A program made the position numbers and the translations under genes. A stretch of DNA of 64,000 bases from the NCBI GenBank assembly GCA_902779765.1, contig CACZCQ010000002.1:124001-188000 (forward strand), given 5' to 3'. Below are positions 39,225-56,126 of the stretch, one piece after another. The notes under the pieces were generated by a model. It did no database searches. It saw nothing but the letters and a program-made list of their open reading frames with translations, and was not told the origin of the DNA. The DNA comes from an uncultured Bacteroidia bacterium (GTDB lineage Bacteria > Bacteroidota > Bacteroidia > Bacteroidales > UBA932). Each line of letters opens with the position of its first letter. The first letter of the stretch is position 1.

Positions 39225-39252
39225 ATACCGATAAATCATTTTTTATCAGTAT
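39225..39252. promoter_or_regulatory. Inverted repeat between divergent promoters (operator candidate)
   Basis: ATACCGATAAA at 39225-39235 and TTTATCAGTAT at 39242-39252 are inverted copies with one mismatch in 11 and a 6-base spacer. The right arm overlaps the plus-strand -7 box, and the left arm lies near the -33 region of the minus-strand gene, so one regulator could control both. Confidence 0.45.
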
Positions 39253-39257
39253 TTTTG
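39250..39257 (+). promoter_or_regulatory. Candidate -7 box, plus strand
   Basis: TATTTTTG matches TAnnTTTG, 25 bases before the ATG at 39283, and partly overlaps the inverted repeat. Confidence 0.5.
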
Positions 39258-39282
39258 TAATAATCTTAAAAGGGCACTAATA

Positions 39283-39693
39283 ATGAGTGAATACATTGAA
39301 ATAGCTGATATTCTTGTAGATCCTCAATCTGCAATTGGAAAGGATTTCCACTATGAATGCGAGATGGTTTTACCAGATACTCCATTTGCTAACGCATTAT
39401 CGGACATGGCCAGTTATTTATCCGAAGGAGAGCCTGATATCATATCCATTGATGGCCGGGTCGTCTATTGCGACAGCAAATTCGCAGTGATCAGAGTTCA
39501 TCATTCTTTTATAGAGTTCGATCACTATATGTTCTCATTCGAAGAGACCGCTGAACGTTTTCCGGACTTTGAAGACAAAACCAGGACCGGAAGCGAGGAT
39601 TATCTGTGGCTTTCCCTTGAAGACGGATTTTTCACTCTAAGCGATCCGACATTTGAGGATGATGAAACGGACCTACCTAAGGAATCTGAATAA
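39283..39693 (+). CDS. Small acidic hypothetical protein
   Basis: A 136-residue soluble protein I do not recognise. It is very acidic, especially at the C-terminus (DPTFEDDETDLPKESE), and has alternating beta segments (DIISIDGRVVYCDSKFAVIRV) and no signal peptide. The coding sequence is AT-richer than the core genes nearby. It is divergent from the 220-residue hypothetical gene and shares its inverted-repeat promoter region. Possible roles include DNA mimicry or immunity to a toxin, neither supported beyond composition. Confidence 0.6.
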   Translation: MSEYIEIADILVDPQSAIGKDFHYECEMVLPDTPFANALSDMASYLSEGEPDIISIDGRVVYCDSKFAVIRVHHSFIEFDHYMFSFEETAERFPDFEDKTRTGSEDYLWLSLEDGFFTLSDPTFEDDETDLPKESE

Positions 39694-39737
39694 ATAGCCT
39701 CGCTTTCACTTTTTTAATTGATACTTGAATCGCAACA

Positions 39738-40331
39738 CTAAATCTCTTTGAAGTACGGTTCAGTATCGGGAATGAATTCCTCTCCCGTTGCTCGAATCGC
39801 CTCTTCCGGATCCGAAAATATGAAGGGAACGGATAGCTCAGCAGATGGTTCAGGGAATTGAATAACTTTTATGACACCCCATTTCCCATCTTTATTTGCA
39901 ACCACGTATCCATAATCGTCCCAATGATTCCAATCAGCATAAACTGAAACGCCCTCATAAATGAACGGTTCTCCCTCACAACACCAAATACCGTCCTGAG
40001 ACCCATTTACTTCCATCAATGGGAAAATGCCGTACTTACCATTGTATTCAGCTATACAAAGTCCACTGACATTGCAGTCGTTCAACATATAGAATGTCAA
40101 ATTATCAGCGGTGACATAATTGCCTTTAAAACGAGCCTTATAGTAATCTTGCATTTCTCCCGACTGGAAAATGGAATCGTAGGTATACCAATTCCCATCC
40201 ACTTCATAAAGATTATGTCGGTTCAAATACTCAGTCAATTCTTCCTGGTTCATCCGCGAGCCGTTTTCATTCTTCACCGTAATTCCGGCCATAGCCATCG
40301 CTTCCGCGAACCTCTTGTTAAAATCTTCCAT
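39738..40331 (-). CDS. Hypothetical protein with WG-repeat-like segments
   Basis: The 197-residue soluble protein contains two segments resembling WG beta repeats, YNGKYGIFPLMEV and KDGKWGVIKVI. An aromatic-rich first half follows a helical start (MEDFNKRFAEAMAMAGI). WG-repeat proteins are widespread and often act as binding or immunity-like accessory proteins; no catalytic motif is visible here. It is AT-richer than the core genes. It lies on the minus strand between the acidic protein and the leucine-rich repeat protein, without tight spacing to either. Confidence 0.62.
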   Translation of the reverse strand: MEDFNKRFAEAMAMAGITVKNENGSRMNQEELTEYLNRHNLYEVDGNWYTYDSIFQSGEMQDYYKARFKGNYVTADNLTFYMLNDCNVSGLCIAEYNGKYGIFPLMEVNGSQDGIWCCEGEPFIYEGVSVYADWNHWDDYGYVVANKDGKWGVIKVIQFPEPSAELSVPFIFSDPEEAIRATGEEFIPDTEPYFKEI

Positions 40332-40403
40332 AATGCTGAATGATCATTTGTATATTCCTTGTTCAAATTCTACGATTACGTACGATGAAAGAATGACACA
40401 AAC

Positions 40404-41471
40404 CTACAGAACATCATCTTCTTCCGCCCCGTAAGTCCTGATCTCGGGCTTCTCCTGCGTATAAATATCGTTCATAAAAGAAGGATAGAAGCGGAGACTT
40501 TGCCTGGCGGCAGTCTTCGTCCTTTCAAAGCAGAACAAAACCTCGAACGGGTGGAAAGAAGCCGCATGCCACACTTCCGCCACTACTTCATAAACCGGTT
40601 TACCAGGACGCAGTCCCGGCAAGGGGTGGAAACAGATTGCATATTCCCAATAAGAGTAGGTCAGATCAAATGAATCGATAGGATTGGGACGTCCCTCTTC
40701 CAGATACTCGACGACCATATTGGCAGCCAGCAAATTGATGTCTCCAGGCTCTAAGCTCTTGATGCTTTCGTTCAGCAGGCCGCACAGTCCTTCATAGGCA
40801 TCCTTTGCATTGAAAAAAGGCCCTCCAATATAAGGCTCGACGAAACAATGGTCATCAAAACACGAATAGGAGTAATCCAGATCCTCCACAATACTGGAGA
40901 CGGTAGCCATAACCGGAAATTCGCCCGAATATCCTTCCATACGCTGCAACAACTCATCAAGGTTCTTATGTTTCAGGCGATAGTACCACTCGTCTCTCGG
41001 TGCATTTTCGCACAAGTTTTCAAGACCGGGAGGAACGATCATCTCGGCGACCTTGTCCTTATAGACACCGAAAGAATCTGCCTTGTACCCTTCCGGTACG
41101 ACAAAACGCTTCAAGTCCGGGCAGTCAAAGAACGCCCCCTCCCCCATTTGCTTGATGCGTGGAGTCAGAATCATTTCTTCCAGTCCGCTTCCTGCGAATG
41201 CACGTGAACCGACGACTTTGACGGAATCCGGTAGCGTGACGTGCCTGAGTTTCCTGCACCTGCCGAAAGCATCAGGCTCGATGGTCGTCACTCCATACGG
41301 TATCGTAACACTCTCAAGGTTGACGCATTCATAAAAGGAAGCCTTCCTGATGGTCTTGATGCCGGAAGGAATATCAACGCTTTTAATGTCCTTTCTTTTC
41401 CAGAAGCATTGGGCTTTGCCAAATGACTCCAAATTGGCATCAAGAATAGAGCCGTCTGTCAATGTGATCAT
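40404..41471 (-). CDS. BspA-type leucine-rich repeat protein
   Basis: The 355-residue protein has about four LRR_5 repeats in its first 140 residues: IKSVDIPSGIKTIRKASF, LESVTIPYGVTTIEPDAF, LRHVTLPDSVKVVGSRAF, LEEMILTPRIKQMGEGAF. A separate C-terminal domain without repeats follows, containing DYSYSCFDDHCFVEP and TYSYWEYAICFHPLPG. There is no signal peptide, so unlike surface BspA proteins it is probably cytoplasmic. Function unknown; the repeats suggest protein binding. It lies 28 bases downstream of the HD-domain gene on the same strand and may be co-transcribed with it. Confidence 0.78.
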   Translation of the reverse strand: MITLTDGSILDANLESFGKAQCFWKRKDIKSVDIPSGIKTIRKASFYECVNLESVTIPYGVTTIEPDAFGRCRKLRHVTLPDSVKVVGSRAFAGSGLEEMILTPRIKQMGEGAFFDCPDLKRFVVPEGYKADSFGVYKDKVAEMIVPPGLENLCENAPRDEWYYRLKHKNLDELLQRMEGYSGEFPVMATVSSIVEDLDYSYSCFDDHCFVEPYIGGPFFNAKDAYEGLCGLLNESIKSLEPGDINLLAANMVVEYLEEGRPNPIDSFDLTYSYWEYAICFHPLPGLRPGKPVYEVVAEVWHAASFHPFEVLFCFERTKTAARQSLRFYPSFMNDIYTQEKPEIRTYGAEEDDVL

Positions 41472-41499
41472 AAAATGATATAGTTAATGTCAAACCGAA

Positions 41500-42204
41500 C
41501 TAGTGTATGGCAGCTTCATGGTCTGCTTTGATAATCAAGCGCACAAGGGCACTCTCCTTCTTGGCCATTTCGCACTCGGTCCTCTCTTTCAGGTCTTTGA
41601 TACGACTCGCCCCCATATGCCAAATGATGGCCAGCATTTCATCTTCTTCAAGCCTATAACCGTGTAACAGAGCCAGGATAACCGACTTGCAGCCATGCCC
41701 GCCGATATGGACAGATGTAGGTTTGTGAGCCGGAGACCCGTCAGCCCTGATCTCATATTCATCCATCTTGCAGATGTCGTGAAGCAGGGATGCAACAGCA
41801 ACGCTCTCTTCCTTCAGTTCTCCGACGAGAGCAGGATCTGCCTTCAACATTTCTTCACGAAATTTCATGGCGTAGTCATACACCTTCAAAGAGTGGTTGA
41901 TGAGTCCTCCTTTCCAATTGCTGTGATGGACGACTGAACCCGGTGCAGTAAAAAAGCCGTTGATTCTGAGATAGTGAATGAAGGGCACCGTGCCTTCGCG
42001 CCCAACGGATTCCAAGATTTCGCAAAATCGCCTCTCATCTTCACTGACCGTTTGCAAGTCCTTGACATTCTGTTCCATTTCTGCGGCCAGTTCATCTTTC
42101 TCCTCATCACTCATACCTAATGGGAAAAAGTCCAGAAACTGTCTGGCAGAGAGTGGTTTGATGGGGAATACCCTGGGATCCATTTCGTTGTCTTCGTTTG
42201 ACAT
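41500..42204 (-). CDS. HD-domain phosphohydrolase/nuclease-like protein
   Basis: The 234-residue soluble protein has an HD-superfamily core: HHSNWKGGLINHSLKVYDYA supplies the first histidines, ASLLHDICKMDEYE is the HD motif, and IGGHGCKSVILAL a later His. This arrangement resembles the HD domain of YhaM-type 3'-5' exonucleases and related signalling phosphohydrolases. An acidic N-terminal region of about 60 residues precedes it. The substrate, nucleic acid or nucleotide, cannot be read from the sequence. It is the first gene of a probable pair with the leucine-rich repeat gene. Confidence 0.72.
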   Translation of the reverse strand: MSNEDNEMDPRVFPIKPLSARQFLDFFPLGMSDEEKDELAAEMEQNVKDLQTVSEDERRFCEILESVGREGTVPFIHYLRINGFFTAPGSVVHHSNWKGGLINHSLKVYDYAMKFREEMLKADPALVGELKEESVAVASLLHDICKMDEYEIRADGSPAHKPTSVHIGGHGCKSVILALLHGYRLEEDEMLAIIWHMGASRIKDLKERTECEMAKKESALVRLIIKADHEAAIH

Positions 42205-42321
42205 ATGCTTATATAGTTGGTTTCAAAAAACGTCTCACCATATTATATACACCTAAAAGGATTATATCTTTCAGCAGAAGTAGTATAGAACATCCTATCA
42301 AGAATGTGAAACTGGAACAAT

Positions 42322-43434
42322 TTACTTGATGGATTCGGCGAGTTTCTTCGCCAGCGCTTCACCACGCAGACCACGGGCAACGACGATGCCTTCGGGGTCG
42401 ATAAGGAGGTTGTCCGGGATGGAGTTGACAGAGTATACCTCTGCGGCCGCTGTCTTCCAATACTTCAGGTCAGAGAGATGGATCCACGGCATCTGCCATT
42501 CGGCGATAGCCTTTACCCAGGGATCCTTCTCCTGGTCAAATGAAAGCCCTACGATCTCAAAACCCTGGTCATGGTACTGATTGTAGGCAGCCACGACATT
42601 GGGCATTTCAGCCTTGCAGGGACCACACCATGAGGCCCAGAAATCTACCAGCACCCATTTGCCCTGCCCCACATATTCACTCAGCTTATGCATGTTGCCT
42701 GCGGTATCCGCCTCTTCCAAATCCAGGAATCTTTGGCCTATGATGGCATTCTTTGCATCATCAGCCTTCAATTCTTCGGCCATGTTTTCTTCAAGGCTTT
42801 TCTTGAGATCCACGACGAACGGATGCTTGGCAAAGGGTGCATCCGAAGAAACCAGTTCGTTGAACTTGGCATAGCCCATGGCTGCGGGGACATTTTCAAT
42901 GAAAACGACCGGGATGAGATTGTCCTTATTCTCCTCGATGATCGCCAGCTTTGTATCGGCATAATCCTGGAACGCAGCCTCAAATTGCGCGACAAATTCA
43001 TCCTCTGCGGCATCCCGTTCCTCTTCGGGCAGTGCCAAAAAAACCTCGACGAGCTGATTCAACCGGGCATAGGCCTTTGAGTTACGCTTGTCACATTCCG
43101 TCAACTTGACATTAAGGGCCGATCCGGCGACGGAACTGTCGGCGAAATTGATTTGCACAGGAACACCGTCATTGATAAGAGGATATTTCCACTCGGAGTT
43201 CTCGACTTCTATGCCCAGAAAAGCATCTTTAGTGGCCTTCCCCTTCATCTCGAAGGTGCCGTTGGACACTACTGCGCTGTCGATGTAGTCTTCAACAATC
43301 CGGTCTATCAGATAGACGGTAACCCCATCCTGGGGAGCGTTCTTACCTGTAATGACATACTTTGAATCATTCCCGGAGCACGCCAGCATCCCTGCTGCGG
43401 CCACCGAGAGCATAAGAATGGAAATAGCTTTCAT
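42322..43434 (-). CDS. DUF4369/thioredoxin-fold lipoprotein (TlpA-like disulfide reductase)
   Basis: The 370-residue protein has a lipoprotein signal (lipobox GMLAC after MKAISILMLSVAAA), an N-terminal DUF4369-like beta domain (YVITGKNAPQDGVTVYLIDR), a helical middle and a C-terminal thioredoxin fold. The active site is WASWCGPC, followed by EIVGLSFDQEKDPW and a cis-Pro region. It would reduce disulfides or assist cytochrome/lipoprotein folding in the periplasm. Bacteroidales carry many paralogues. I chose the ATG at 43434 because it starts the signal peptide; the open frame extends 36 bases upstream. Confidence 0.88.
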   Translation of the reverse strand: MKAISILMLSVAAAGMLACSGNDSKYVITGKNAPQDGVTVYLIDRIVEDYIDSAVVSNGTFEMKGKATKDAFLGIEVENSEWKYPLINDGVPVQINFADSSVAGSALNVKLTECDKRNSKAYARLNQLVEVFLALPEEERDAAEDEFVAQFEAAFQDYADTKLAIIEENKDNLIPVVFIENVPAAMGYAKFNELVSSDAPFAKHPFVVDLKKSLEENMAEELKADDAKNAIIGQRFLDLEEADTAGNMHKLSEYVGQGKWVLVDFWASWCGPCKAEMPNVVAAYNQYHDQGFEIVGLSFDQEKDPWVKAIAEWQMPWIHLSDLKYWKTAAAEVYSVNSIPDNLLIDPEGIVVARGLRGEALAKKLAESIK

Positions 43435-43491
43435 AACCGCTAAAATAACCATTCTTTTCAGTCCAAGCAAGTTAAGTCAAAGATTATTGAT

Positions 43492-43499
43492 TAACTTTG
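43492..43499 (+). promoter_or_regulatory. Candidate -7 box upstream of the lipoprotein at 43523
   Basis: TAACTTTG matches TAnnTTTG, 23 bases before the ATG at 43523. Confidence 0.5.
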
Positions 43500-43522
43500 T
43501 CCGGACATTTTATCCTGTTTCT

Positions 43523-44227
43523 ATGAAAAAGTCATCTGTAATATTTATTATCTCGGCATTTGCTGCCGTTGTACTTGCATCCTGCGAAAAAGAAAGATCC
43601 GATAAGGATAAGAGTCCTTATGACAAATACGCTGTCGACCTTGGCTTGAGTGTAAAGTGGGCAAGTGTCAACGTAGGAGCATCGGACGAAAAAGGACTGG
43701 GGAATTATTATGGATGGGGAGAAACCTCTGAAAAGCCCGACGGTACTTACTATGACTGGGATAGCTACCTGGTGTTCAAAGGAATCGGGACTGACGACGC
43801 CTCGCGTGACGCAGCTCTTGCCCGAATCTACGGCAGCGATCTGATACTGAAAAACGAATATGACGTCGCCCACGTGAAATGGGGAGGGTCCTGGAGGATG
43901 CCTACTGAGGAGGAGTTCCAGGAACTCATGGAAAAGTGTACCTGGGAGATGGTGCCGTCAGACATCGACAAATGGTCCAATGATACTCCCGGCGGATGGA
44001 AGGTGACCAGCAAAATCAACGGGAAGTCCATCTATATTCCCGCTTCCGGACAACGTACGAATATGAATCTTGAAAAAGACAAAGGCAGACAGGCCTATTA
44101 TTGGACTTCGGACCGTGATGAAGATGCAGACACTTTCGCTATGGTTTTCGGCCGGTTCAAGAATGTACTATTCTGGGGCACTCAATATGTCTGCATGGGA
44201 TGTACTGTGCGTCCCGTCTGCCCTTGA
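43523..44227 (+). CDS. Lipoprotein with FISUMP-like (Fibrobacter major paralogous) domain
   Basis: The 234-residue protein has a lipoprotein signal (lipobox VLASC) and then the pattern of the Fibrobacter succinogenes major paralogous domain common in Bacteroidota surface proteins: AVDLGLSVKWASVNVGA, LGNYYGWGETSE, GGSWRMPTEEEFQELM, GKSIYIPASG and AYYWTSDRDE, ending in CTVRPVCP. Such domains adopt a C-type-lectin-like fold and are probably surface-exposed binding modules. The open frame extends about 170 bases upstream, but the promoter box and the signal peptide fix the start at 43523. Confidence 0.8.
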   Translation: MKKSSVIFIISAFAAVVLASCEKERSDKDKSPYDKYAVDLGLSVKWASVNVGASDEKGLGNYYGWGETSEKPDGTYYDWDSYLVFKGIGTDDASRDAALARIYGSDLILKNEYDVAHVKWGGSWRMPTEEEFQELMEKCTWEMVPSDIDKWSNDTPGGWKVTSKINGKSIYIPASGQRTNMNLEKDKGRQAYYWTSDRDEDADTFAMVFGRFKNVLFWGTQYVCMGCTVRPVCP

Positions 44228-44270
44228 CAACTGCTTACTTCGATTCTCCGATAGTATTTTTTGTAAAAAA

Positions 44271-44307
44271 CAGCGAGGGAGACAAAGATTATTTGTTTCC
44301 CTCGCTG
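44271..44307. terminator. Bidirectional terminator hairpin
   Basis: CAGCGAGGGA pairs with TCCCTCGCTG, and the stem extends through ACAAA/TTTGT around a 5-base loop. The minus-strand copy is followed by TTTTTTA. On the plus strand it lies 43 bases after the FISUMP-like gene. Confidence 0.7.
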
Positions 44308-44334
44308 TAAATTAATATTTTAAGAGTAATCTCT

Positions 44335-44355
44335 CTAGTATTCTTCTTCGTTAAA
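44335..44355 (-). repeat. Left copy of 21-bp flanking repeat
   Basis: CTAGTATTCTTCTTCGTTAAA matches 56106-56126 (CTAATACTCTTCCTCGTTAAA) at 18 of 21 positions in direct orientation, with both copies encoding FNEEEY plus stop on the minus strand. The pair brackets the AT-rich three-gene operon. Confidence 0.45.
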
Positions 44356-44481
44356 TTGGTCGCGGAGGATGGGATATTGCTTGGTAATCAATGGGTTAGG
44401 ATGCGTCATTGTAGTCTGGCCCCAGACCTGGCATGACTTATTTAACACTTCCTCCGCCAGAGACGAGTTGAAATAAAACAT
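44335..44481 (-). CDS. Possible 48-residue small protein or gene remnant
   Basis: An ATG at 44481 opens a 48-codon frame beginning MFYFNSSLAEEV and ending QYPILRDQFNEEEY before TAG. No family is recognised and no good ribosome site is seen. The last six residues and the surrounding bases match the end of the DUF2795 protein at 56106, so this may be a left-over or duplicated 3' end rather than a working gene. Confidence 0.3.
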   Translation of the reverse strand: MFYFNSSLAEEVLNKSCQVWGQTTMTHPNPLITKQYPILRDQFNEEEY

Positions 44482-44768
44482 GGCATAACTGTTTCATTGA
44501 GTTGCTCTCATTTTCATTGCCTCCGTGCAGTTTCTATTTATACGCTTAATGCTGCTTCAGTCACCCTTTGTTGTCGTATAATTGAAGATTTTGACTAGTT
44601 ATGTAATTGATAGCAAGAATACCTTGCACACATAATACACACTGAACTTGTATGGCACTGATATACGACAATATCGCGGTAAAAACCATGGAAGTTCTGA
44701 GGGGCATTATCACCAGCATCTAAATGTAGCTCGTAGACATTAGTCAAGAACAAGTGTTGAGATTTATA

Positions 44769-47700
44769 CTATCCTAACGAGCCATATCCTCCAGACCCGG
44801 AACTGAACGGAGCAGAGGACGATGGTGGATTAGCGGAAGTTGTATTGCCCCCAGTTTGAGATGAGCATGACGTTGTGTTCTGTACAGGTCTAGTAGCACA
44901 TTTTACAGGACTTGATTTAACAGTTCTCTGTAACTTGAATGAATTTTGGGATCTACACCCATCAATTGATTCCTGGCTACACACATTCCATAACGGATGA
45001 ACTAAGTGTTCAATAAGGGAAACACCTCGTTCCATAGTCGTGAAGTATCCGGAATGCCAATCATGTAAATCATTCTTGGTATAGACAATATTACCGGCAG
45101 GATGTGCATGTTCAACACGTTCGCCAAGTTCGTTCATAATTTTGGCCAGGTCACCATAAGGAGTAGACGACAAATCGGAGTATCCCATTTCGTATGTTCC
45201 ATCTATCATCAGTTTAATAATATCCATTCCTAGCCTCCAATCTAGAACATGGTGGATGCCTCTATTATAAAAAGTATCTAAGCACTTGGGGCATGCGGTG
45301 GCGCATTCATCTTTATGACTCAAAATAGCACGGATAAACTTGCTCTTGGGATTAGGAGACACGATGTCTTCCATAATTGATTGTAATTTGAGCACCCCCG
45401 TAGCCGGATCAGTTTTACAGAGTAACGAGATGAAACCGGCTCCATTTGCCGCTTTATCATTCAAATAAATGGATGGCATTCCACTCGTGGAATCAATTTT
45501 AACCTCACTTATCTCGATCTCTTCAGGTTGAATATCAATTTCATCCGCAAATGTCCTTTGTATTAACGTGGCGGCAGAATAAAAAGCGGCGATAATTGCG
45601 GAGCGATTACCCGTAAGGCAATTTAGATTAATCACTTGAGGAATTTTGGATACATCCATAGAAAGGCACAGGATATCAGTGACCTTTTTCGCTCCGATTG
45701 CGATTCTCTCCGGATTATTATCCGTGCTCCAATAATCCTTCTTATAACAGCCTTCTACCATGAAGTTGGGGGATGAGCCAATAACTTGGGCTTCGTTCGT
45801 CGGGGTAATCTGTTGTGAGAAGAAACGAGGTTCTACAAGATACGATCCAGCATTCTTGCGAATAGCTCGCTCTCCTCTAAAGAGTTCTCCGTTGTTGGTA
45901 TTAATATACCACACATCACCCTTCTTATTATCCCCGTTCCATACCTCCCATAACAAGGAACCTCCAGTAATGGATGCTGGCGCAGAGGATTTTGCATCCA
46001 CCCAAATCTCTACCGGCGTATAATTACTCCTTGTGTCGTCTTCATGGTTATATTCTCCCTTATTGCCAATAATTCTATCGGTTCTGAATGCCTTGGGAAT
46101 CACCAATCGAACAGTCGATAAGTTAATCGGATCAATAAGATTCTGATTATATGGCTCAACTGACATGATCTCCGCGCCATTCAAGTTAAGATTGTAGCTA
46201 TGCTGGAGAGGATCTAATTCTTCAGGGTCGATCGCCAAATCAGCTAACGTTTTTCTTCGAGCCAAGTAGGTTAGAGGGACAGTAAGACCTGCAGACTGAT
46301 ACTCGGCTGCATCCTTTGTCTTAATTGCTCCTGGAGCAAATTCTGTTATGGCCTGTTCAATAGGACGGTCTATAACTCCAGAGTATATTTCGTAGTACTT
46401 ATACGGCTGACCATCAGATGACCCGCTATGGTATAAAACTCGGATAGCAGAAGGCATTCCATACATTGGCAAGAGTCCGGCTTCTGCAAAAGCCTGGGCA
46501 TTATCATCTTGTGTGCTATTATCTATAGCTTCATCCATTAATGAGAGGATGTCATTATTTAACCATGAAATTAGATCAGAATTCAATGGGTCTGTTTGAG
46601 CAACAAACTGTGAAGTGTAATAATGAATAATACCATTAATGTCACTTTGATGGTTTTGGATCCAGTCTTTGATGCGAGGACGAACAACTGTTTTCCAATT
46701 ACCAGTATTCCCTAACTGCCCCGCAGTACCGGTTTTCGTCGCCCAGCCTTGTTCCCTTGAAGAAATAGCCATTAGTATGTGCTTGAGCACAATACGTTTG
46801 AGTATAACAGCATTAGGGACGCCGTCTACTATCGGATTGACAGAGATAGTAGGATATGCAGGGATCCCACCTGTTATTTCTTCAGTGGCCTGATAATAGT
46901 AATAGTTGTCATGACTCCTGCCGCGGCAAAAAGTTAGGGCGGCGGAGAATGCCTGACCTCTACGTCCCGCTCTACCAACTCTCTGCTGATAATTGTAACG
47001 TGTTGGAGGCATATTGCCCTGATAAATGGCCTGAAGACTTCCAATGTCCACACCAACCTCCATGGTCGTGGTTACGCTTAGCATATCGATGCAATTTGAC
47101 AATGGATTCTTTCCTGCCAGCATTATATCCTTGAAGCATAGCAGTCGTCCCATCTGATCATCCGTCTGACCTGTAAGTTCTTCAGAATGTAAACGCCTTG
47201 GATCGTGAGGCTCCTTTCTGACATCAAAGGAAATATAGTTGCTCGCCCATAAACTATCCACTTTCCCCGAGGAAGTTACCGGCAAGTCGCTGAGACAGGC
47301 GGTGTTGGTGCAAAATCCCAAACCTCTATGTAGATGAACACGTCCACACTTTGGACAAACATAGTAGTCATCTCCAGAATGCATTAGAACAAAACGTAAC
47401 GGCTTATTCAGTTCCAATTTCCCATCGTCATCGGTTGCAACAGAACGCATAGCGCTGCAAACAGCATCCCCCAATGTATTCTCATTATTCCCCGTTAAAA
47501 AAGCCAAACGTTGAACCACCTTTCTTAGAGGCTTTGAAAAGACTGAATAATTAGGCATTTCCTTGGCTTCAAAATCACCATCATATCTGTAGGCGTCACC
47601 GTAAACACGGATTAAGGCGTTAATCACACCTTCTATAGACAGGTTGTTTGAAGCCAAGTATGATTGAATAAGCTGACTTAAGTGATTAACTGCCTGAGAT

Positions 47701-50700
47701 TGGCTCGTGTCAGAAGAGGCCACATAGCCCAATCCTGCGACTTCGGTGTTCACATTAATAAACTGTCCAAAACAGTTGCTGAATACATTTGATTCAATGT
47801 TCCTATAAACGACTTCTCCGAGAGTCTTACCAGATGTGACCTTTACTAAGAACGCCCGGGATTTCATTTGCTCCTGTCCAGGGGTAAAATCATAGAACTG
47901 ATCCCAATATATGTCATCTTTGGGGTACATATCAGAATACTCTGATCCGGCGGGGTTTATGCCCAGTTTCAACAATTCTGCAACCAACTCGCCATCAATC
48001 ATATTATTGCTCCTGGAGACCATTTTATTAAGATCGACGCTGTCCACATTCGGAGAATATGAATTGATCTTTGCAATAACAATGTTAGTGGGTAATCCAG
48101 ATAATACTATTCCGCTGAGAGATGTGGCATCTGAAGTCGAAATGCCTGGCCAGCTATTGATTGTACTGATAACGATACTTGGCTGAACTCCACCTTGTAC
48201 CGCCGGCACTATCATAGACTTTAATTGATTCAGTTGAGTAGAAGCCGAGCCATTAGCTTTTTGGGCAATTAGATTGATAAAACAGAGACGCAACATATCA
48301 CGATAGTGTTCTCTCGCGATTAGTTTAGATTGTTCCGCCGCATCTTGTCTACTATCAGAGAACCCAATCAATTTGGATTTATGAGAACCGTGAGGATCTA
48401 ACTGATACAATAATTCTTTGCCGAAAATCTGGTTGTTTCGTCCCATACCAGTTCTGAAACTACGTATGGGAGATTGGGTATACTTTCTATTTAAGTAGTC
48501 TTTCTCGCATGCGGGACACTTACATGGTAGTGCCTTGAGCACCCTAGTATTATACTCAGTAAGTTCTGCTCCAGCAGAGTTCCTTGGACAATATAAAAAA
48601 CCATGGATGTATTCATCGCGTGCCACCTTGGGACCAAGAGCGAAAGTGATAGCGCCATCATATGGATTCAAGAACCCTTCTTTCCAGGCCCCGTGAATAG
48701 CATCGGAACCGGTATCTCGAGGTGATTTCTCTCCGATACAATTTACCACCCCAAAACGTTCATAATTGCCTGTTACGGGTTCACTACTAAACCAACCATT
48801 AAGCGCGCGGGCGCCACTGGGCCAGAATAAGGCATATTCATCAAGATTCTTTCTTTGAACCATAGGCGTAGCTTGCATGTTGGGAATCTTGTCAAGCTGA
48901 GGACTATTGAGTGAAAGGCCCACTTTACCTCTTGAAACACTATCGGCCCTATTACCACCAATAAACAATTCGCCACAACACTCACATCTAAGCAACTCCA
49001 AGACCCTATGCCCTCCATTCGATGAGACTTCTTCAGGATGAAATAGAATTTCACCAACATGTCCCGCATGGGCCTTGTCCGGCAGCAATTCTCCCCAAAG
49101 TCCGTCAATATAACGATAGAACTGATGAAACCTTAAACTGGGGAGATACTCATGATTAACAGCTCCTCTAAAGATTAAGAGACCTCTGATCGCATCATCG
49201 GATGGGGCACCTGGTAGTTTTTGTAAATCTGATAAAGCGAACGTAGTGCAGGCTGGCGAGACAAACTTTCGAAGGTCCTCGTAGATTTGGGGTGAATACT
49301 CGTCAACGAACTGGGCGAACGTTTTCGAGTATCTCGCCTTGTTAAGGAAGAGGCTCTCCGTGCTTACCTTTTCAGCCGCACTCTGTTCGTAATAAAACTT
49401 CCCGAAAGTGTTATTCTTGGAGAAAGTGTCGAAAACAGAATAGTCAAGCGGGGCCTGCTTTGCTGACGGAATACTTAAATCATATCCTTGCTGAATCGCA
49501 AAAGGCTTTTGTGGATCTGATATGCCAAAAAAATCAGCAAGATACTGTTGGGCGCCAAGGCCCAAAGAGGCACTGGATGCATACACGCGTAATTGTGGAT
49601 TCGCTTTCCCATTCTTCATGGGAGGAACACCGATGCGATCTAAGAACATTCTTAAGAGATAGGATACTTCAGCTCCAGCTGTTCCTCGATGCAAGTGCAA
49701 TTCATCCACGATTAAATGGAAAACAGCATCGGGATGATTTTGATAATAATTCCGAGTCTGGTCCAACATATCCTGCTCTTCAAAACGCATTAGCATTATG
49801 CTCAACATACTAATGTTTGTAATGAAGATGTCCGGACATGCCTTATGCATATCCTCTCGAACCAGCATTTCCCCTGTGAATTCCTGATCAGATAGGCGGG
49901 AAGATACATAAACATCATCGGGCTCGCATTCCCCATTTGATGCTGCTTTGGACAAGACTTGAGCTTGGTCAAATGATGCTGCCAATCGGGCAACCGCCTT
50001 GTATTTGTTCGGGGTCTCGCTATTATAGCTTCCGAAAAAAATACGATTCCCCTTACAATCCTTGTCGAGAAAAGCCCTCACGGCCGGAGAGTCCAACGCC
50101 TTTCTCAATCTGGCGACCTGATCTGCAACAAGGGCATTCATCGGATAAAGTAGGAGTGCTCTCATGGCGGCCGGACGAGTTTCGCCATTTCGTTGGCACG
50201 GCACATAAACTCCTTCCTGGTCAACAGTCTGCCACCAAGTAGGATTGTACCCGACAGCGGGAGCTGACCACTTGTTATTAGCCTCATATAATAATTCTGC
50301 AAACAGAGGCAACAAGAAGGATTCGGTTTTTCCAGAGCCGGTTCCAGATGTGATCAAGACATTCTTTCCTTCACCGTATCCCTTGCAGAGCATCTCGAAC
50401 TGATGCTTGTACGGAATGTAGTTCATTAAGCCGTTTGTAATAAAGGATGCGTACCCATCTGGCAAGGGTTTTAACCCATTATGCTTTGTATAATAATCAC
50501 CTGTAGCTGGCTTACACAGAGATGCAAGATCGCAACTCTCTGACTGATACTTCGGCAAAAGTTCGCAATAGGGCTCTTTTGCAAGGTTGTCGGATTTGCG
50601 GATTTCAGCATTCTTTTTCTTATCAATGCTCTGATCTTTGAAACGGTACATCGTCTCAAAATACCGCAGATAGTCTTCTTTGATTTTGTCGAAAGCGCCA

Positions 50701-50738
50701 ATAGGATCCTTAGACAAAAGCTGCTCGTATTGTGCCAT
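44769..50738 (-). CDS. Very large SF2 helicase with DUF1998 (DruE-like)
   Basis: The 1,989-residue protein has a Q-motif-like YKHQFEML, Walker A SGTGSGKTES at about residue 131 and the DEAD-type box VDELHLHRG at about 345. Motif VI is QQRVGRAGRRGQ. Several zinc-knuckle-like groups follow (CECCGELF, CPACEKDY, CPKCGRVHLHRG) and a C-terminal DUF1998-type CATACPKCLDTFYNRG. The end is a low-complexity Ser/Gly tail (SSSAPFSSGSGGYGSLG). Length and layout match DruE, the helicase common to all Druantia anti-phage types. DrmB or another DUF1998 helicase is less likely because of the size. The start lies 2 bases after the middle gene of the operon. A clear frame continues beyond its TAG stop. Confidence 0.85.
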   Translation of the reverse strand: MAQYEQLLSKDPIGAFDKIKEDYLRYFETMYRFKDQSIDKKKNAEIRKSDNLAKEPYCELLPKYQSESCDLASLCKPATGDYYTKHNGLKPLPDGYASFITNGLMNYIPYKHQFEMLCKGYGEGKNVLITSGTGSGKTESFLLPLFAELLYEANNKWSAPAVGYNPTWWQTVDQEGVYVPCQRNGETRPAAMRALLLYPMNALVADQVARLRKALDSPAVRAFLDKDCKGNRIFFGSYNSETPNKYKAVARLAASFDQAQVLSKAASNGECEPDDVYVSSRLSDQEFTGEMLVREDMHKACPDIFITNISMLSIMLMRFEEQDMLDQTRNYYQNHPDAVFHLIVDELHLHRGTAGAEVSYLLRMFLDRIGVPPMKNGKANPQLRVYASSASLGLGAQQYLADFFGISDPQKPFAIQQGYDLSIPSAKQAPLDYSVFDTFSKNNTFGKFYYEQSAAEKVSTESLFLNKARYSKTFAQFVDEYSPQIYEDLRKFVSPACTTFALSDLQKLPGAPSDDAIRGLLIFRGAVNHEYLPSLRFHQFYRYIDGLWGELLPDKAHAGHVGEILFHPEEVSSNGGHRVLELLRCECCGELFIGGNRADSVSRGKVGLSLNSPQLDKIPNMQATPMVQRKNLDEYALFWPSGARALNGWFSSEPVTGNYERFGVVNCIGEKSPRDTGSDAIHGAWKEGFLNPYDGAITFALGPKVARDEYIHGFLYCPRNSAGAELTEYNTRVLKALPCKCPACEKDYLNRKYTQSPIRSFRTGMGRNNQIFGKELLYQLDPHGSHKSKLIGFSDSRQDAAEQSKLIAREHYRDMLRLCFINLIAQKANGSASTQLNQLKSMIVPAVQGGVQPSIVISTINSWPGISTSDATSLSGIVLSGLPTNIVIAKINSYSPNVDSVDLNKMVSRSNNMIDGELVAELLKLGINPAGSEYSDMYPKDDIYWDQFYDFTPGQEQMKSRAFLVKVTSGKTLGEVVYRNIESNVFSNCFGQFINVNTEVAGLGYVASSDTSQSQAVNHLSQLIQSYLASNNLSIEGVINALIRVYGDAYRYDGDFEAKEMPNYSVFSKPLRKVVQRLAFLTGNNENTLGDAVCSAMRSVATDDDGKLELNKPLRFVLMHSGDDYYVCPKCGRVHLHRGLGFCTNTACLSDLPVTSSGKVDSLWASNYISFDVRKEPHDPRRLHSEELTGQTDDQMGRLLCFKDIMLAGKNPLSNCIDMLSVTTTMEVGVDIGSLQAIYQGNMPPTRYNYQQRVGRAGRRGQAFSAALTFCRGRSHDNYYYYQATEEITGGIPAYPTISVNPIVDGVPNAVILKRIVLKHILMAISSREQGWATKTGTAGQLGNTGNWKTVVRPRIKDWIQNHQSDINGIIHYYTSQFVAQTDPLNSDLISWLNNDILSLMDEAIDNSTQDDNAQAFAEAGLLPMYGMPSAIRVLYHSGSSDGQPYKYYEIYSGVIDRPIEQAITEFAPGAIKTKDAAEYQSAGLTVPLTYLARRKTLADLAIDPEELDPLQHSYNLNLNGAEIMSVEPYNQNLIDPINLSTVRLVIPKAFRTDRIIGNKGEYNHEDDTRSNYTPVEIWVDAKSSAPASITGGSLLWEVWNGDNKKGDVWYINTNNGELFRGERAIRKNAGSYLVEPRFFSQQITPTNEAQVIGSSPNFMVEGCYKKDYWSTDNNPERIAIGAKKVTDILCLSMDVSKIPQVINLNCLTGNRSAIIAAFYSAATLIQRTFADEIDIQPEEIEISEVKIDSTSGMPSIYLNDKAANGAGFISLLCKTDPATGVLKLQSIMEDIVSPNPKSKFIRAILSHKDECATACPKCLDTFYNRGIHHVLDWRLGMDIIKLMIDGTYEMGYSDLSSTPYGDLAKIMNELGERVEHAHPAGNIVYTKNDLHDWHSGYFTTMERGVSLIEHLVHPLWNVCSQESIDGCRSQNSFKLQRTVKSSPVKCATRPVQNTTSCSSQTGGNTTSANPPSSSAPFSSGSGGYGSLG

Positions 50739-50740
50739 AT

Positions 50741-53700
50741 TTATCGTTTAATTTGTTTTACTAATACAGGAATTGTTTGGGTCTTGTCTCCTTGGGGATG
50801 AACCGGAATATCTTTGACGTATTTTTCTATCTTATCAAGGTTGTTATTATCGAGGTTGACTGTATTGCAAATGATACTGGAAAATACCTCATTGAGATTG
50901 TTTCCTTCTAGGCGGTAAAAGACTGAAGCCGGCGAAGCCTTATAATAAACTTGATTACCGATAGCAAATGCCAATAGGTCAGATCCGTAGAATAGCGACA
51001 GTAGGCCAACTCTACCATCATAATTCCTGGTGTATTTCATTTTATACCAATTGTTCACTTGATATGAGAAAACGATGGATTCGTTTGATACCAAATCGGA
51101 AACTATCCTTCCAGATACTTTTGAAATAGCCCCGTGCAAGTATTGATAATTCTGCGATGTAGCTGTGGTGGCATAGTTCTTTTTCTCTATAGTAGGATCA
51201 TGAGCATTACTGGGGAGTCCTATAGTTTGCTCTTGATGGACAATAAATACCCTTTCTATACTGGGCATTCCTAATGACAGATCACAGAATGCCACATCGA
51301 GAACCGCTGGCAGCCCCATCCCAGACACAAAAGATATCTTCGCCAAATTCAGGCCCTTTAATGCTTTGGAATACTCCAACAAACAAATAGGGGTATTCTT
51401 GGAATTCTGACAGAAAGCACGAGCTAAGTGTTTAGGAATTGGCCTTAATTTTCCCTCTACTTCGTAATACTTATGTGTAACATACTTTCCACTCTTATCT
51501 TTAGTACACAAAACCTCATTCCCTTTGTTATCTTTAACCATACATGGGACTGTGCGTGAAGGAACTGAGAATAATGATTCCCCACCATTATTAATCCCGA
51601 ACTTTAGTGCAAAGCCCTTCATGTTCTCCATATTCGAGATTAGGTAATCCGCCACTGGATAATCTAATACCGGCCATTGTTCAATGGGCTCACCCTCAAA
51701 CAATATAACGTCGGGTAAACAAGCATATTCAGGTCGGGTAATTAATGCCCCATTATCATATGGCCGCTTTCGATAAATACTACTAGGACTGATATTATCT
51801 AATAAGGAATCAATGTCGGACTGACTATAAACACCCTTGACCACATAAGCATTTGCAAACTGAAGAATGCTATAATTACTCCTTTCCACATATTTGGAAA
51901 CAAGCTGATTAATATACTCTTTGCGATCAATGTCATAATAGGCCATGATATACCCTAGCCGACGTAATGCATAGATAACAGATTTGCGATTTGACTCAGT
52001 TGGGGTAATCCCCCAAAATGGCAGCGCAAACTCAATAGCCGCACGCATTTTTCTACCAGAGACACATCCGGAAGAGTCTGAGAGGTCATATAAAATCTGT
52101 ATAAGGATATCAGAGCCGACAGTTTTACCCCCCAAGTTATTATGGAGATGTTGCTTCCCTGTAACAATGTTTTTTACGCCTTTATCATCGACGGGGGAAT
52201 CTGTTATTTCTCCCCATCCATTCATGTGATAATTCGTTTGGAGCCCACCCCACTCGAAATCACAGGATACTTGTTCGGATACCACATCCTTTTCACCTTC
52301 TCGAATAATAAGATCCCCGCTCAAGTGTTGTGATGCGGTAGGCGGAAGCCTGAAATAGTACTTATTATTCACCCCTTTGATTAGACCATCCAGTCGTTTG
52401 AAATCCTGTCCGAGCTGATTGGGACGCCAAAAAACGCACTGTCCTTCAGAAAGAGCAACGCTAAACCAAGAACCAAGTTCGTTAAGTTGGAATGTGTCAT
52501 CTGCTTTTACACGATTCCTTCGCTCCGTCGTGGGCGCGGAATATGATTGTACGGAATACACATTGTATTCCTGTTCTAAAAAATCAGAAGGACACCACTC
52601 TTGTTCAAACGTCTTTAATCGCGCTGTTTTTTTGATAAAAACATAATAGTCCTTCCCACAAACGGGTGCTTCTACCTGTCGATAAATGTCGTCTGAAATG
52701 CGTTCAAAATAAAACCGTGAACCATATTCTGCAGTACCATCACCTACATTGCTAATCGTATACTTATTGCCCTCATAACGAAGTTGTTTTGCAGACAATG
52801 CCGCCAATGGGACATTCTCTGCAACATAATCTGAAGATGAAGGCTCTTCTGAAACTTCAAAGGAGCCCTGCTTTAGAGATAAATTGAATGGAAGGTTATA
52901 ATACTCACAGAAAACAGAGAAAGAATGTGACCCGTCAAAATCAAAGTATAACTCATATCCCCATTTGGCAATTGTATCTTGAATGTCGTTTCCGCATTTT
53001 GAGAACTTCTTTCCGAAGTTTAATTTGCCTCGAAGAATGTTTTTAACATAAGGTATATTTTCTTCTTTGATAATGATCCTGGTAAGGTCATTCTTACCGG
53101 CTTTCTCAAGCGCAGGGATTAAGATATTGTTTACAAAAAAAGAATATGACTCATATTGCCAATGAAGATTGTTGACCTCAAGGAAATCAACAAAATCTTC
53201 CCTCATTGATTTTTTGAGCACCAGATGATATTTAATGCGGCTTATATGTCTTTGGCTTCCACATATCATTCGGTCCGGATTAAAGCACGGATGATCCGCA
53301 TGTAATTGTTGCAGAAGAGGTTCTATCAACATTCCAGGGTTAGAGGCGTAATCTTCTCCTAAATACTCTCTAGCCTTTTCTTTAATCCTCGTATGATTAG
53401 CTCCTTGAAGACTTGCCAACAACATTATTGCGCACAACATTGCGAAATATGCCGGATAGTTATCTGCTTTCAAGGTCATCAACCGTTCAACTAGACTATT
53501 CCAAGTCCTAGCAGACGGAATGAGTGTTTTCCTATCACCCGTGCGATCTTCCCAAAAGAGCTTAAAACTTTCGAAGTCATCTCCACTCAAAAGAGTACAA
53601 GATAAGAACTGGTGAGTCCAATCCTGGCCTTCTTCATGTTTGATGTGATTGATCTCTGCGACTTGTGTTAAAACAGTTTCGTCTATATATAATATAGCAT

Positions 53701-53776
53701 TTTCCTCCTTTGACGGGAAGAAATATCGCCATAGTGCGCTGTTCCACTCGCAATACTTGTTGATTGGCCCAAACAT
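50741..53776 (-). CDS. Large protein of unknown fold in the Druantia-like operon (DruH candidate)
   Basis: A soluble protein of 1,011 residues when started at the ATG at 53776 (MFGPINKYCEWNSALWRYFF). The preceding 32 residues overlap the upstream gene and are discarded, leaving a 10-base gap. I see no Walker motif, nuclease motif or membrane helix. Visible features are an aromatic N-terminus of the WNxALxxxFF type, a helical first third, a beta-rich middle (ADDTFQLNELGSWFSVALSEGQ) and a C-terminal part with repeated beta strands. Druantia type III pairs DruE with a large uncharacterised protein, DruH; position and size make this gene a DruH candidate, but similarity to DruH is not shown. It lies 2 bases upstream of the large helicase gene. 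Confidence 0.7.
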   Translation of the reverse strand: MFGPINKYCEWNSALWRYFFPSKEENAILYIDETVLTQVAEINHIKHEEGQDWTHQFLSCTLLSGDDFESFKLFWEDRTGDRKTLIPSARTWNSLVERLMTLKADNYPAYFAMLCAIMLLASLQGANHTRIKEKAREYLGEDYASNPGMLIEPLLQQLHADHPCFNPDRMICGSQRHISRIKYHLVLKKSMREDFVDFLEVNNLHWQYESYSFFVNNILIPALEKAGKNDLTRIIIKEENIPYVKNILRGKLNFGKKFSKCGNDIQDTIAKWGYELYFDFDGSHSFSVFCEYYNLPFNLSLKQGSFEVSEEPSSSDYVAENVPLAALSAKQLRYEGNKYTISNVGDGTAEYGSRFYFERISDDIYRQVEAPVCGKDYYVFIKKTARLKTFEQEWCPSDFLEQEYNVYSVQSYSAPTTERRNRVKADDTFQLNELGSWFSVALSEGQCVFWRPNQLGQDFKRLDGLIKGVNNKYYFRLPPTASQHLSGDLIIREGEKDVVSEQVSCDFEWGGLQTNYHMNGWGEITDSPVDDKGVKNIVTGKQHLHNNLGGKTVGSDILIQILYDLSDSSGCVSGRKMRAAIEFALPFWGITPTESNRKSVIYALRRLGYIMAYYDIDRKEYINQLVSKYVERSNYSILQFANAYVVKGVYSQSDIDSLLDNISPSSIYRKRPYDNGALITRPEYACLPDVILFEGEPIEQWPVLDYPVADYLISNMENMKGFALKFGINNGGESLFSVPSRTVPCMVKDNKGNEVLCTKDKSGKYVTHKYYEVEGKLRPIPKHLARAFCQNSKNTPICLLEYSKALKGLNLAKISFVSGMGLPAVLDVAFCDLSLGMPSIERVFIVHQEQTIGLPSNAHDPTIEKKNYATTATSQNYQYLHGAISKVSGRIVSDLVSNESIVFSYQVNNWYKMKYTRNYDGRVGLLSLFYGSDLLAFAIGNQVYYKASPASVFYRLEGNNLNEVFSSIICNTVNLDNNNLDKIEKYVKDIPVHPQGDKTQTIPVLVKQIKR

Positions 53777-53786
53777 TCTTAATCTT

Positions 53787-55628
53787 CTACTTTTCCTCAA
53801 TAGTAACAAAATCAGGATTCTCGCGGGCAATCTCCCTGAGAATAGTATCAATTGTTGAACCCTTTTGGACACCTAATACAAGAGTGTCGACGGCTCGTGT
53901 TAACGGTATTAACGACCATAACGACAACATGTACTGTCTTGCAGGAGAAAAAGGGATCTCGTGATAATCGTGAGGATGAGGCTCAGTAAACAACTCATCA
54001 AAACGCAAGCAAACAGTTATCCAGGCTTCTAGCCCTCGACATGATTCGTATGTATATACACGACATTCCTTATTCTTGTAATTAACATCAGAATACAAAC
54101 TGTCTCTGTTGGCAGAGTCCACACCATCATACAAATGGATGCCTTGCGCATTATACGCATCTATTAAGTCAAAATGACCTGTCTTTGTGAGGCTATTTGG
54201 AACTAGCAACATTAAATCATATGCTGAACAACCATGTTGAACAGCCTCATGAAAAAGGCGTTCATGAAGGTTTTGATCATATGCATTTGTAATAATTACT
54301 TTCCCGCCTGGCAAAGAACGAGTAGAGTCCACATCCCAATATACGCCTAATTTGCTGGCAAAAATCTTTGCGAACGAAACGAGATTCGATCTCTGACGAA
54401 GACATTGTTTCAATTTAGGTAGTGCAATTGGCCCCCAATACGTATGCTCGCTGGTTTTCATGAACTGATCAATCCCATCAGCAATAACGATGTGTTTGTC
54501 TCTGTAATAATACTTGAGCATCTCCGCCTCATTTGTCTTCCAATCCTGCGCTTCGTCAACGAAGATATAATCATATACTGGTGCGATATCTTTTGACTCC
54601 TTGACTTTCATTAAAACAGCTAAGGATTGATCAAAATCAGACTTGATGTCAAATGTATTCTTCCATATACCTGCCTTACGCATAAGGCCGATCATAAATG
54701 AACTCATTGAATCTATGTCGAACACCGGCAGGATTTTGCCGAAGAAACGCATTGTGTGTTTAAGATCGGCTATTAATGCTCTGTTATAAGTCAGGAATAA
54801 ACACTTGTAACCTTTCTTCGTCATATTAATTGCTCCCTGCATCAGCATAACCGTTTTGCCTGTACCGGCATGTCCGGATAGGATTATAACAGATGAACAA
54901 TCCTTTTCTAGATCTAGAAGTGCATTATTATTAGTATTTAGGATATTAATACGACGAAGAGTCATCGTATCAGCACCATTACTCTTTGCACAAAAGATAT
55001 TGGCAGTGTACTCTATCGCTTCTTCTGTTCCGAACTTTCCAAAAGCGTTTACATAGCCATTGTCAACTAAAGAGTACTGTCGCCCGATTGCGACAAAAAA
55101 ATCTTTGGCAGTAGAATCGCTTACTAATATATTGCTGTCGACTAATCCTATCTCTTCGTTAAAATCATTCCAATCCGTCCCTCTCAGCCATATCAGGTTT
55201 GAGATAAAAGGAACTCGAATAGATTCCTGCTGAAGAGGTCCTGATAAGAAACGTCTAATCGATGAGTTTTGGTCATTACTTTGCATCGTAACATCCTCGT
55301 ATCCATCGGGATATTTAACTAATAGATGCGTGCCACTCCTTTTAAGCCCTACACCAGAATGAGATTTTATCTCAATAGTCGCAAAAAAGGACTTAATATC
55401 AATATTGCACTTCCCTGCAATATCGTCAATATAATAGTCCTTCAAATAACCAATCATGATCAGATCGACATCATGTCTCCCAGTCGCGGGATGAATGTCT
55501 ATACTGGGAACAATCCAAACACGACCATCTATATCGGCCAGTTCAACGTCTAAGAGTTGCTTCAACGAGGCTGCCGCTTCCATTTCACTTGAGGCTGTTC
55601 CAATTTTGTGAAGATAAACATCTGCCAT
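53787..55628 (-). CDS. NERD-nuclease/SF1 (UvrD-like) helicase fusion
   Basis: The 613-residue protein has an N-terminal NERD-type nuclease segment: RHDVDLIMIG with Asp53/Asp55 and FATIEIKSH with Glu86 and Lys88, the D...ExK core. A superfamily 1 helicase follows. Walker A is SGHAGTGKT (251-259), motif Ia is LTYNRALI, motif II is FVDEAQDW (356-363), motif III is VIADGIDQ, motif IV is LRQRSN, a late motif is YESCRGLEAW, and motif VI is IPLTRAVDTLVLG. NERD helicases occur in several defence contexts. It is the first gene of the three-gene operon and its stop lies 10 bases before the middle gene start. A role in cutting or unwinding invader DNA is inferred. Confidence 0.82.
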   Translation of the reverse strand: MADVYLHKIGTASSEMEAAASLKQLLDVELADIDGRVWIVPSIDIHPATGRHDVDLIMIGYLKDYYIDDIAGKCNIDIKSFFATIEIKSHSGVGLKRSGTHLLVKYPDGYEDVTMQSNDQNSSIRRFLSGPLQQESIRVPFISNLIWLRGTDWNDFNEEIGLVDSNILVSDSTAKDFFVAIGRQYSLVDNGYVNAFGKFGTEEAIEYTANIFCAKSNGADTMTLRRINILNTNNNALLDLEKDCSSVIILSGHAGTGKTVMLMQGAINMTKKGYKCLFLTYNRALIADLKHTMRFFGKILPVFDIDSMSSFMIGLMRKAGIWKNTFDIKSDFDQSLAVLMKVKESKDIAPVYDYIFVDEAQDWKTNEAEMLKYYYRDKHIVIADGIDQFMKTSEHTYWGPIALPKLKQCLRQRSNLVSFAKIFASKLGVYWDVDSTRSLPGGKVIITNAYDQNLHERLFHEAVQHGCSAYDLMLLVPNSLTKTGHFDLIDAYNAQGIHLYDGVDSANRDSLYSDVNYKNKECRVYTYESCRGLEAWITVCLRFDELFTEPHPHDYHEIPFSPARQYMLSLWSLIPLTRAVDTLVLGVQKGSTIDTILREIARENPDFVTIEEK

Positions 55629-55844
55629 GATTTCAAATACTTTGGTTATTATTACCGATCAAACAATAAAACCTTTCGTACTCATAGATGTTCTATAAAC
55701 AAGAGCTGCATCTAAGTTCCAAACTGCTCGTTATTTACGAATTGCCGGTCGGATTTCCAAAATTAACAAAAAAAACACATATTTACGAGGAAATCTTCAT
55801 TAATGAAAGGAATCATGCGCGCTCAAAGAGGGCAAACAGAATAG

Positions 55845-55881
55845 AAAAAAAAGATGGCAGGTCCCGCGGTGGCCTGCCATC
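55845..55881 (-). terminator. Rho-independent terminator candidate, minus strand
   Basis: GATGGCAGG at 55853-55861 pairs with CCTGCCATC at 55873-55881 (9 base pairs), and the minus-strand copy is followed by eight U residues. It would stop transcripts coming from the DUF2795 side before the defence operon. Confidence 0.7.
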
Positions 55882-55967
55882 TGCAGATTATCGAGATCCC
55901 TGGCAATGGATTTCAGGTAACCTGTCATATGAACACAAAAATTGGTTACTATTACCGTCGCAAAATT

Positions 55968-56003
55968 GCGTCTGTTTTTGCGTCCGTTTTTGCGTTCACT
56001 TTT
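55968..56003. repeat. Three tandem 12-bp units
   Basis: GCGTCTGTTTTT, GCGTCCGTTTTT and the more divergent GCGTTCACTTTT follow one another directly. Confidence 0.6.
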
Positions 56004-56038
56004 GTTTCCGCACCTGGCCCTCAGTGTCCTTAAAAGGC

Positions 56039-56071
56039 CATCGGGCGTGACTCAAAGAATCACACCCGATG
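56039..56071 (-). terminator. Hairpin after the DUF2795 gene
   Basis: CATCGGGCGTGA pairs with TCACACCCGATG (11 Watson-Crick pairs and one G-T) around a 9-base loop, 34 bases downstream of the DUF2795 stop. The minus-strand side continues GGCCTTTTAAGG, a weak U-tract. Confidence 0.5.
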
Positions 56072-56105
56072 CACTTAAATTACTGTATTTCAGAGAGTTA
56101 ACTAC

Positions 56106-56126
56106 CTAATACTCTTCCTCGTTAAA
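56106..56126 (-). repeat. Right copy of 21-bp flanking repeat
   Basis: The 3' end of the DUF2795 gene; 18 of 21 positions match 44335-44355 in the same orientation. Confidence 0.45.

Follow-up and report, generated by a model that had tools for sequence, protein, structure and literature searches.

Among the Druantia defence systems, DruE is the sole component common to all types, and its partners are thought to set how it is triggered (preprint PMC13192584). Type II comprises DruM, DruF, DruG and DruE, type III comprises DruH and DruE, and type IV, as defined in PADLOC, consists of DruE, DruF and DruL (PMC8565338). Type III DruE is described as loading on 3′-tailed DNA and cutting it, nuclease activity is reported for both DruE and dimeric DruH, and DruH is regarded as the likely sensor (PMC13192584). 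A second preprint assigns two PLD domains to type III DruE, one of them predicted to be active, and predicts an inactivated Vsr domain in the DruE of types I and II (PMC12458937). The same source describes TALON, which pairs a YprA helicase with a NERD nuclease. Here we analyse a 64,000-nucleotide stretch of DNA (the window) from an uncultured Bacteroidia bacterium (contig CACZCQ010000002.1, positions 124,001 to 188,000), in which three adjacent genes of a gut bacterium, encoding a NERD-like nuclease fused to a helicase, a divergent DruF and DruE, probably form a Druantia-family antiphage defence system.

Results

The three genes form a minus-strand operon with 10 bases between the first and second gene and 2 bases between the second and third, and the coordinates of their open reading frames (ORFs) agree exactly with a preliminary description of the locus. 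They lie on contig 2 of a 2.48 Mb genome (G000). Positions of the genes and their domains within the window are as follows (aa, amino acids; SF1 and SF2, superfamilies 1 and 2; HMM, hidden Markov model).

53787..55628, minus strand: NERD-like PD-(D/E)xK nuclease fused to an SF1 (UvrD/SLFN-like) helicase, 613 aa (ORF, PADLOC, Pfam, nine-homologue alignment)
55239..55628, minus strand: nuclease-like part of the NERD-helicase, about residues 1–130 (residues invariant in nine homologues; border approximate)
53859..54896, minus strand: SF1 helicase part of the NERD-helicase, about residues 245–590 (Pfam and alignment; border approximate)
50741..53776, minus strand: middle gene, predicted 1,011-aa divergent DruF, comparable in length to long-form DruF (DruF(L) HMM, hhalign)
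53162..53764, minus strand: DruF-homologous N-terminal domain of the middle protein, residues 5–205 (hhalign aligned range)
44769..50738, minus strand: druE, predicted 1,989-aa YprA-family SF2 helicase of the type II/IV kind (PADLOC scores, motifs, tree)
44772..45230, minus strand: DruE C-terminal domain (HPLW motif, common to type II/IV DruEs) followed by a Ser/Gly/Thr-rich tail, residues 1837–1989 (hhalign)
44773..55724, no strand: cassette in common with locus L033, 88–92% DNA identity (DNA comparison; no DNA match adjoining either side)

The operon is real and beyond chance: its large protein matches DruE in PADLOC with E = 0, and a second genome (L033) carries all three genes at 91–95% protein identity. 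The middle ORF measures 1,011 aa when counted from an ATG; an upstream GTG start would give 1,043 aa.

The large helicase had been proposed to be a DruE, and this proposal held: the PADLOC match extends across residues 10–1923, and no family outside Druantia fitted better. Scores were 1271 bits for the DruE2 model, 1132 for DruE4, 451 for DruE1 and 234 for DruE3. Because DruE2 and DruE4 score about five times higher than DruE3, we assign the protein to the type II/IV branch, as a predicted DruE of that kind and not of type III. Its helicase motifs are intact (Walker A GTGSGKT at residue 132, DELH at 345, QRVGRAGR at 1252), and it contains four CxxC motifs (585, 741, 1128 and 1816) and an LDWR motif (1832); the Pfam MZB/DUF1998 model stayed below its cut-off (17 vs 24.2 bits). 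The PLD motif HxK(x)4D is absent from the entire DruE sequence. Its C-terminal domain matches a profile of 22 DruE C-termini (hhalign, E 7.2e-7), and type II/IV DruE C-termini show a weak resemblance to Vsr (E 0.085).

Structures and phylogeny were also compared. The window DruE matches the solved structure 9wae at 611 bits, compared with 96 bits for 9tu7. The nearest DruE to 9wae, at 1547 bits, is that of L101, a locus in which PADLOC also confirms DruF and DruG, and a DruE from a DruF/DruL locus scored 815 bits; we infer type II for 9wae and type III for 9tu7. In a quick 28-row DruE tree with long branches, the window and L033 proteins form a long branch of their own (2.14), placed in a set with DruF-DruG and DruF/DruL loci (99% Shimodaira–Hasegawa-like approximate likelihood ratio support). 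This tree omits L080 (DruE interrupted by an insertion sequence), L097 (in fragments), L092 (which shares its contig with L033) and L040–L047, DruE relatives with low scores. L035, truncated by the end of its contig, and the main piece of L063 were included as found.

The middle protein gave no PADLOC or Pfam match up to E 1, whether to DruF or DruH models. An HMM built from 20 DruF or DruF-DruL rows with the window row excluded, DruF(L), picked out the middle ORF from 3,493 six-frame ORFs of 27 loci (E 2e-7, 26.9 bits), listed no further ORF of positions 35001–64000 at E up to 10, and recovered the L033 copy at E 9e-5. With hhalign, residues 5–205 aligned to DruF at E 8.7e-7, compared with a best E of 0.049 in 19 controls (8 other window proteins, 10 shuffles and 1 reversal); smaller DruF profiles aligned less well (E 0.008–0.009 with 3 and 7 rows, 1e-5 with 10 rows). 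The first ~200 residues are, on this profile evidence, homologous to DruF, the type II/IV partner of DruE, and it is the N-terminal domain only that carries the DruF assignment. The likeness to DruL is suggestive at most (E 0.072; six shuffles gave 0.11–0.61), and a colinear DruL-type motif, PIPKHLARAF...NTP, is present. Many relatives have DruF (~680 aa) and DruL (~350 aa) before DruE, while a single protein of 947–1,032 aa matching both occupies this position in L034, L061, L062, L064 and L091, and a long DruF does so in L078 and L079. PADLOC type II DruF models include long forms of 1,011 and 1,030 residues, and in two NERD-helicase loci the proteins in the middle position (1,013 and 1,035 aa) match DruF2 over their full length. 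Searches of solved structures returned no match for the middle protein, a type II DruF, a DruF-DruL fusion or a DruG, and searches of phages and plasmids returned nothing for the middle protein.

In the NERD-helicase, residues E15, D53, D55, E86, K88 and Q120 are invariant in an alignment of nine homologues and resemble a PD-(D/E)xK site, and the helicase motifs Walker A GHAGTGKT (252) and DEAQDW (358) are conserved in the same alignment. Pfam assigns the helicase half to SLFN-g3 helicase and AAA_19, barely above cut-off. In the proposed fusion of a NERD nuclease to an SF1 helicase, the nuclease-like residues and helicase motifs are intact; the NERD label itself is weak, with Pfam PF08378 matching two of nine family members at a best E of 0.17. 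In a protein tree, the Druantia-linked members fall into two groups, and a single origin was not rejected (approximately unbiased test, p 0.199). Among the matches listed against viral contigs there were at least two weak partial ones for the NERD-helicase; DruE had none in viral contigs, nor did the L079 NERD-helicase in phages.

To place the NERD-helicase in relation to DruE, 395 sampled genomes of the phylum were searched, and eight had matches at E 1e-10 or better. Two of these (the window genome and G424) belong to the nine genomes that were DruE-positive in a search of 395 genomes of the phylum, and the other six are absent from that set. Flanks were read in six genomes, those other than G643 and G461 with their partial matches; two NERD-helicase loci, in the window genome and G424, adjoin DruE. 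The G424 locus (L066), from another Bacteroidota class, has the same gene order as the window, with overlapping ORFs. Among 72,556 plasmids, the window protein matched 6 records and the L079 protein 7. Five of the latter, representing three loci, exceed 200 bits and all abut DruE; two weak partial matches (Emticicia, Citrobacter) do not. The abutting loci, from Alisedimentitalea (L079), Shinella (L078) and Sinorhizobium (L080), are alphaproteobacterial, and in each the NERD-helicase lies immediately downstream of DruE. L080, L112 and L113 are one Sinorhizobium medicae locus of this type in three plasmids.

A NERD+UvrD gene of Deinococcus aquaticus (L099, 14152–15873) is not counted as support: PADLOC identifies it as C3a187, the family profile matches it at only ~1e-8, and it has a Druantia DruE on one side and type III-A CRISPR genes on the other.

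DruK and the NERD-helicase were never found together. Of 27 DruE loci, 11 have DruK, 7 the NERD-helicase (the weak Deinococcus match L099 included) and 9 neither. DruK occurs in 9 of the 13 Bacteroidota DruE loci of this set other than the window's and was confirmed by PADLOC in both loci scanned (L034 and L060). Because the profiles were trained partly on the counted loci, three of the NERD loci came to light through the NERD gene itself and kinship makes some loci non-independent, we treat this mutual exclusion as a descriptive pattern.

The DNA match to L033, a locus in a Bacteroidales metagenome-assembled genome from water-buffalo omasum, covers 44773–55724 as two segments of 88% and 92% identity and ends at both operon edges. 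The sole other DNA match between the window and L033 is 83 bases within a distant glycosidase gene; both genomes also encode an HD-domain protein close to the operon, with ~30% protein identity. Guanine-plus-cytosine (GC) content is 42.1% in the cassette, 53.5% in the rest of the window (outside 44269–56089) and 47% in the left neighbour (38000–44700). The three genes are kept at 88–92% DNA identity in unrelated surroundings, and we read them as a mobile, horizontally moved low-GC cassette that was transferred as a unit. On the folE side (from 56105), the flank is conserved in two of seven same-genus genomes, with other DNA in the place of the cassette; none of the seven shows an empty insertion site, and the left flank was found in none. 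The site beside folE is likely a variable insertion spot.

Several further features were seen at this site. In L105 (G947, 9141–18741), the folE-adjacent site holds other genes, by eye integrase-like and methyltransferase-like. An imperfect direct repeat flanks the cassette at 44308–44355 and 56076–56126 (76% identity across 51 aligned columns; E 1e-5 when the two sequences were compared at loose settings). In its right copy lies the terminal part of a minus-strand gene for a small acidic protein (~56328–56106), which we take to be DUF2795-like, and its left copy resembles a remnant of the same gene end. A 39-base inverted repeat (44270–44308, 87% identity), which borders the left direct repeat and closely follows the operon, is a candidate terminator or element end. 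Rfam gave nothing over 35000–64000 up to E 0.1.

A separate arrangement was noted in L036 and L067, where DruE and a DruF-like gene occur with genes of 576–601 aa and 294–298 aa; in L036, a Lamassu LmuB-like gene is present upstream as well. This is perhaps another unlisted form of Druantia.

Discussion

The locus resembles type IV Druantia in its DruE of the type II/IV kind, a DruF-like gene directly before DruE and the lack of DruG, and differs in having no recognisable DruL, no adjacent DruK or DruM-type methyltransferase and an extra NERD-SF1 gene; the PADLOC rule for type IV (DruE, DruF, DruL; PMC8565338) does not cover such a combination of DruE, DruF and NERD-helicase. With type II it has in common DruE2 as the top score and the long DruF forms of the PADLOC models; it lacks DruM and DruG, since methyltransferase and DruG profiles (three of the four DruG training proteins PADLOC-confirmed, one not) had no match in 35001–64000 at E 1e-4. 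Only the common DruE helicase core links it to type III, from which it is set apart by the missing DruH, the low DruE3 score and the missing PLD motif. Loci L079, L078, L080 and L066 also combine a type II/IV-kind DruE with a NERD-helicase of the same family, and L066, L078 and L079 have a DruF-like gene before DruE. Unlike in the window, the NERD-helicase follows DruE in the three plasmid loci, DruF and DruL are split in L066, and in L066, L078 and L079 a methyltransferase lies nearby and DruE and NERD-helicase are only 26–28% identical to those of the window. TALON likewise joins a YprA-family helicase with a NERD-type nuclease gene (PMC12458937); the window DruE is of the type II/IV Druantia kind, its nuclease is fused to a helicase, and no TPR-CSD or TBP was found among 20 flanking proteins (Pfam, E 0.01; not every small ORF was scanned), so that identity with TALON was rejected. 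In the literature available to us on Druantia and NERD, the NERD passages concern TALON (PMC12458937) or Mokosh/Nhi-like proteins (PMC10952713); supplementary tables or subscription papers may hold a mention.

The sequence shows that the large protein is a DruE, that the middle protein begins with a DruF domain, that the nuclease-like and helicase motifs are intact and that the three genes moved together. With good though not full confidence, we interpret the locus as a horizontally moved variant of type II/IV Druantia in which a NERD-like nuclease/SF1 helicase, a long-form DruF and DruE follow one another and the NERD-helicase would supply the nuclease. DruF may sense infection or license the complex, and DruE may load onto exposed single-stranded phage DNA and then translocate or unwind it. 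The NERD-SF1 protein might be recruited as a second motor and cut the DNA, filling the role of DruK, a PD-(D/E)xK nuclease; we assign the cutting to it because DruEs of the type II/IV branch are reported to have an inactivated nuclease domain. As no DruM-type methyltransferase lies within 35001–64000, self DNA would probably be spared by DNA structure or by the trigger and not by methylation.

Several observations weigh against this interpretation. Over its final 800 residues, the middle protein has no significant likeness to DruF or DruL, and AlphaFold models of the middle protein and the NERD-helicase, each made with the window sequence and the L033 copy only, were unusable (predicted local distance difference test 27.5 and 28.8). 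The NERD label is weak, as described above. The NERD-helicase family is not exclusive to Druantia, since homologues also stand without DruE, in genomes outside the DruE-positive set described above: five such loci (L082–L086) were found in G735 (two), G673, G697 and G595, with a contig end near the gene and one flank unseen in L083, L084 and L085. Most type II/IV Druantia loci, in turn, have no NERD-helicase. It is present in 3 of 14 genomes with a type II/IV-like DruE (the window genome, G855 and G424), of which the first two have near-copies (a single 50,708-base contig holds both the L033 locus and the G855 match); one DruE contig of the 14 genomes (G026) stops at DruE. Among 12 plasmid loci taken from the first 19 plasmid DruE matches, the two with a NERD-helicase (H13 and H15) had both been chosen for that gene, and none of the 10 picked regardless of it carries this family, H14 having a C3a187-kind gene instead. 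The window DruE and NERD-helicase do not cluster with those of other NERD loci, and the Sinorhizobium medicae locus is decayed: an IS3-family transposase gene splits its DruE, and its NERD-helicase is short.

One alternative is that the NERD-helicase is an independent defence gene, travelling beside a complete DruF-DruE pair and acting separately. Homologues without DruE speak for this account, among them that of L084, which adjoins two genes resembling, by eye, a type III restriction-modification pair, and the weak PADLOC matches of the protein (Nhi, C3a187, AbiO) are to proteins of other defence systems. Set against it are gaps of only 10 and 2 bases, the same order with overlapping ORFs in L066, the abutment on DruE in three plasmid loci, the exact co-transfer of three genes and the lack of any locus that holds DruK too. 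We regard independence as the less probable account, though one with a real share of the probability. The claim that the third gene, with its own nuclease-like motifs and helicase, belongs to the unit fared well, and the gene also adjoins DruE in relatives.

A bolder form of our interpretation makes SF2 DruE and the SF1 NERD-helicase a single RecBCD/AddAB-like complex acting on phage DNA with two motors and one nuclease domain. The operon does encode two motors, each from its own superfamily and with intact motifs, together with a single nuclease-like domain; the complex itself, its polarity and its contacts would be hypothetical, the part of DruF is left unexplained, and we consider this form unlikely. 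Far less likely still is the type III-like system of the preliminary description, with the middle protein as a diverged DruH. The lengths are alike (1,011 vs 1,009–1,039 aa) and the gene precedes druE, but comparison with two PADLOC-confirmed DruH proteins gave E 0.28 with hhalign and -0.5 and -0.6 bits by HMM, where the DruF(L) HMM reaches 26.9 bits, and DruE3 scores about fivefold below DruE2. The accompanying idea that the extra gene makes good a nuclease missing from the type III pair disagrees with the accounts of type III cited above (PMC13192584, PMC12458937). What survives of that description is Druantia, DruE and the additional nuclease-helicase gene; type III and DruH do not.

Tentatively, and with somewhat less than even confidence, we suggest that the locus represents a separate Druantia type present in at least two phyla, in which NERD-SF1 would be the dedicated effector of a DruF-DruE core and, at its boldest, part of a two-motor helicase-nuclease acting on phage DNA in the manner of RecBCD. 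Carrying the nuclease as a separate, swappable gene, DruK or NERD-SF1, this branch lets one ask which protein cuts phage DNA, and it is informative where the nuclease domain of DruE itself is reported to be inactive.

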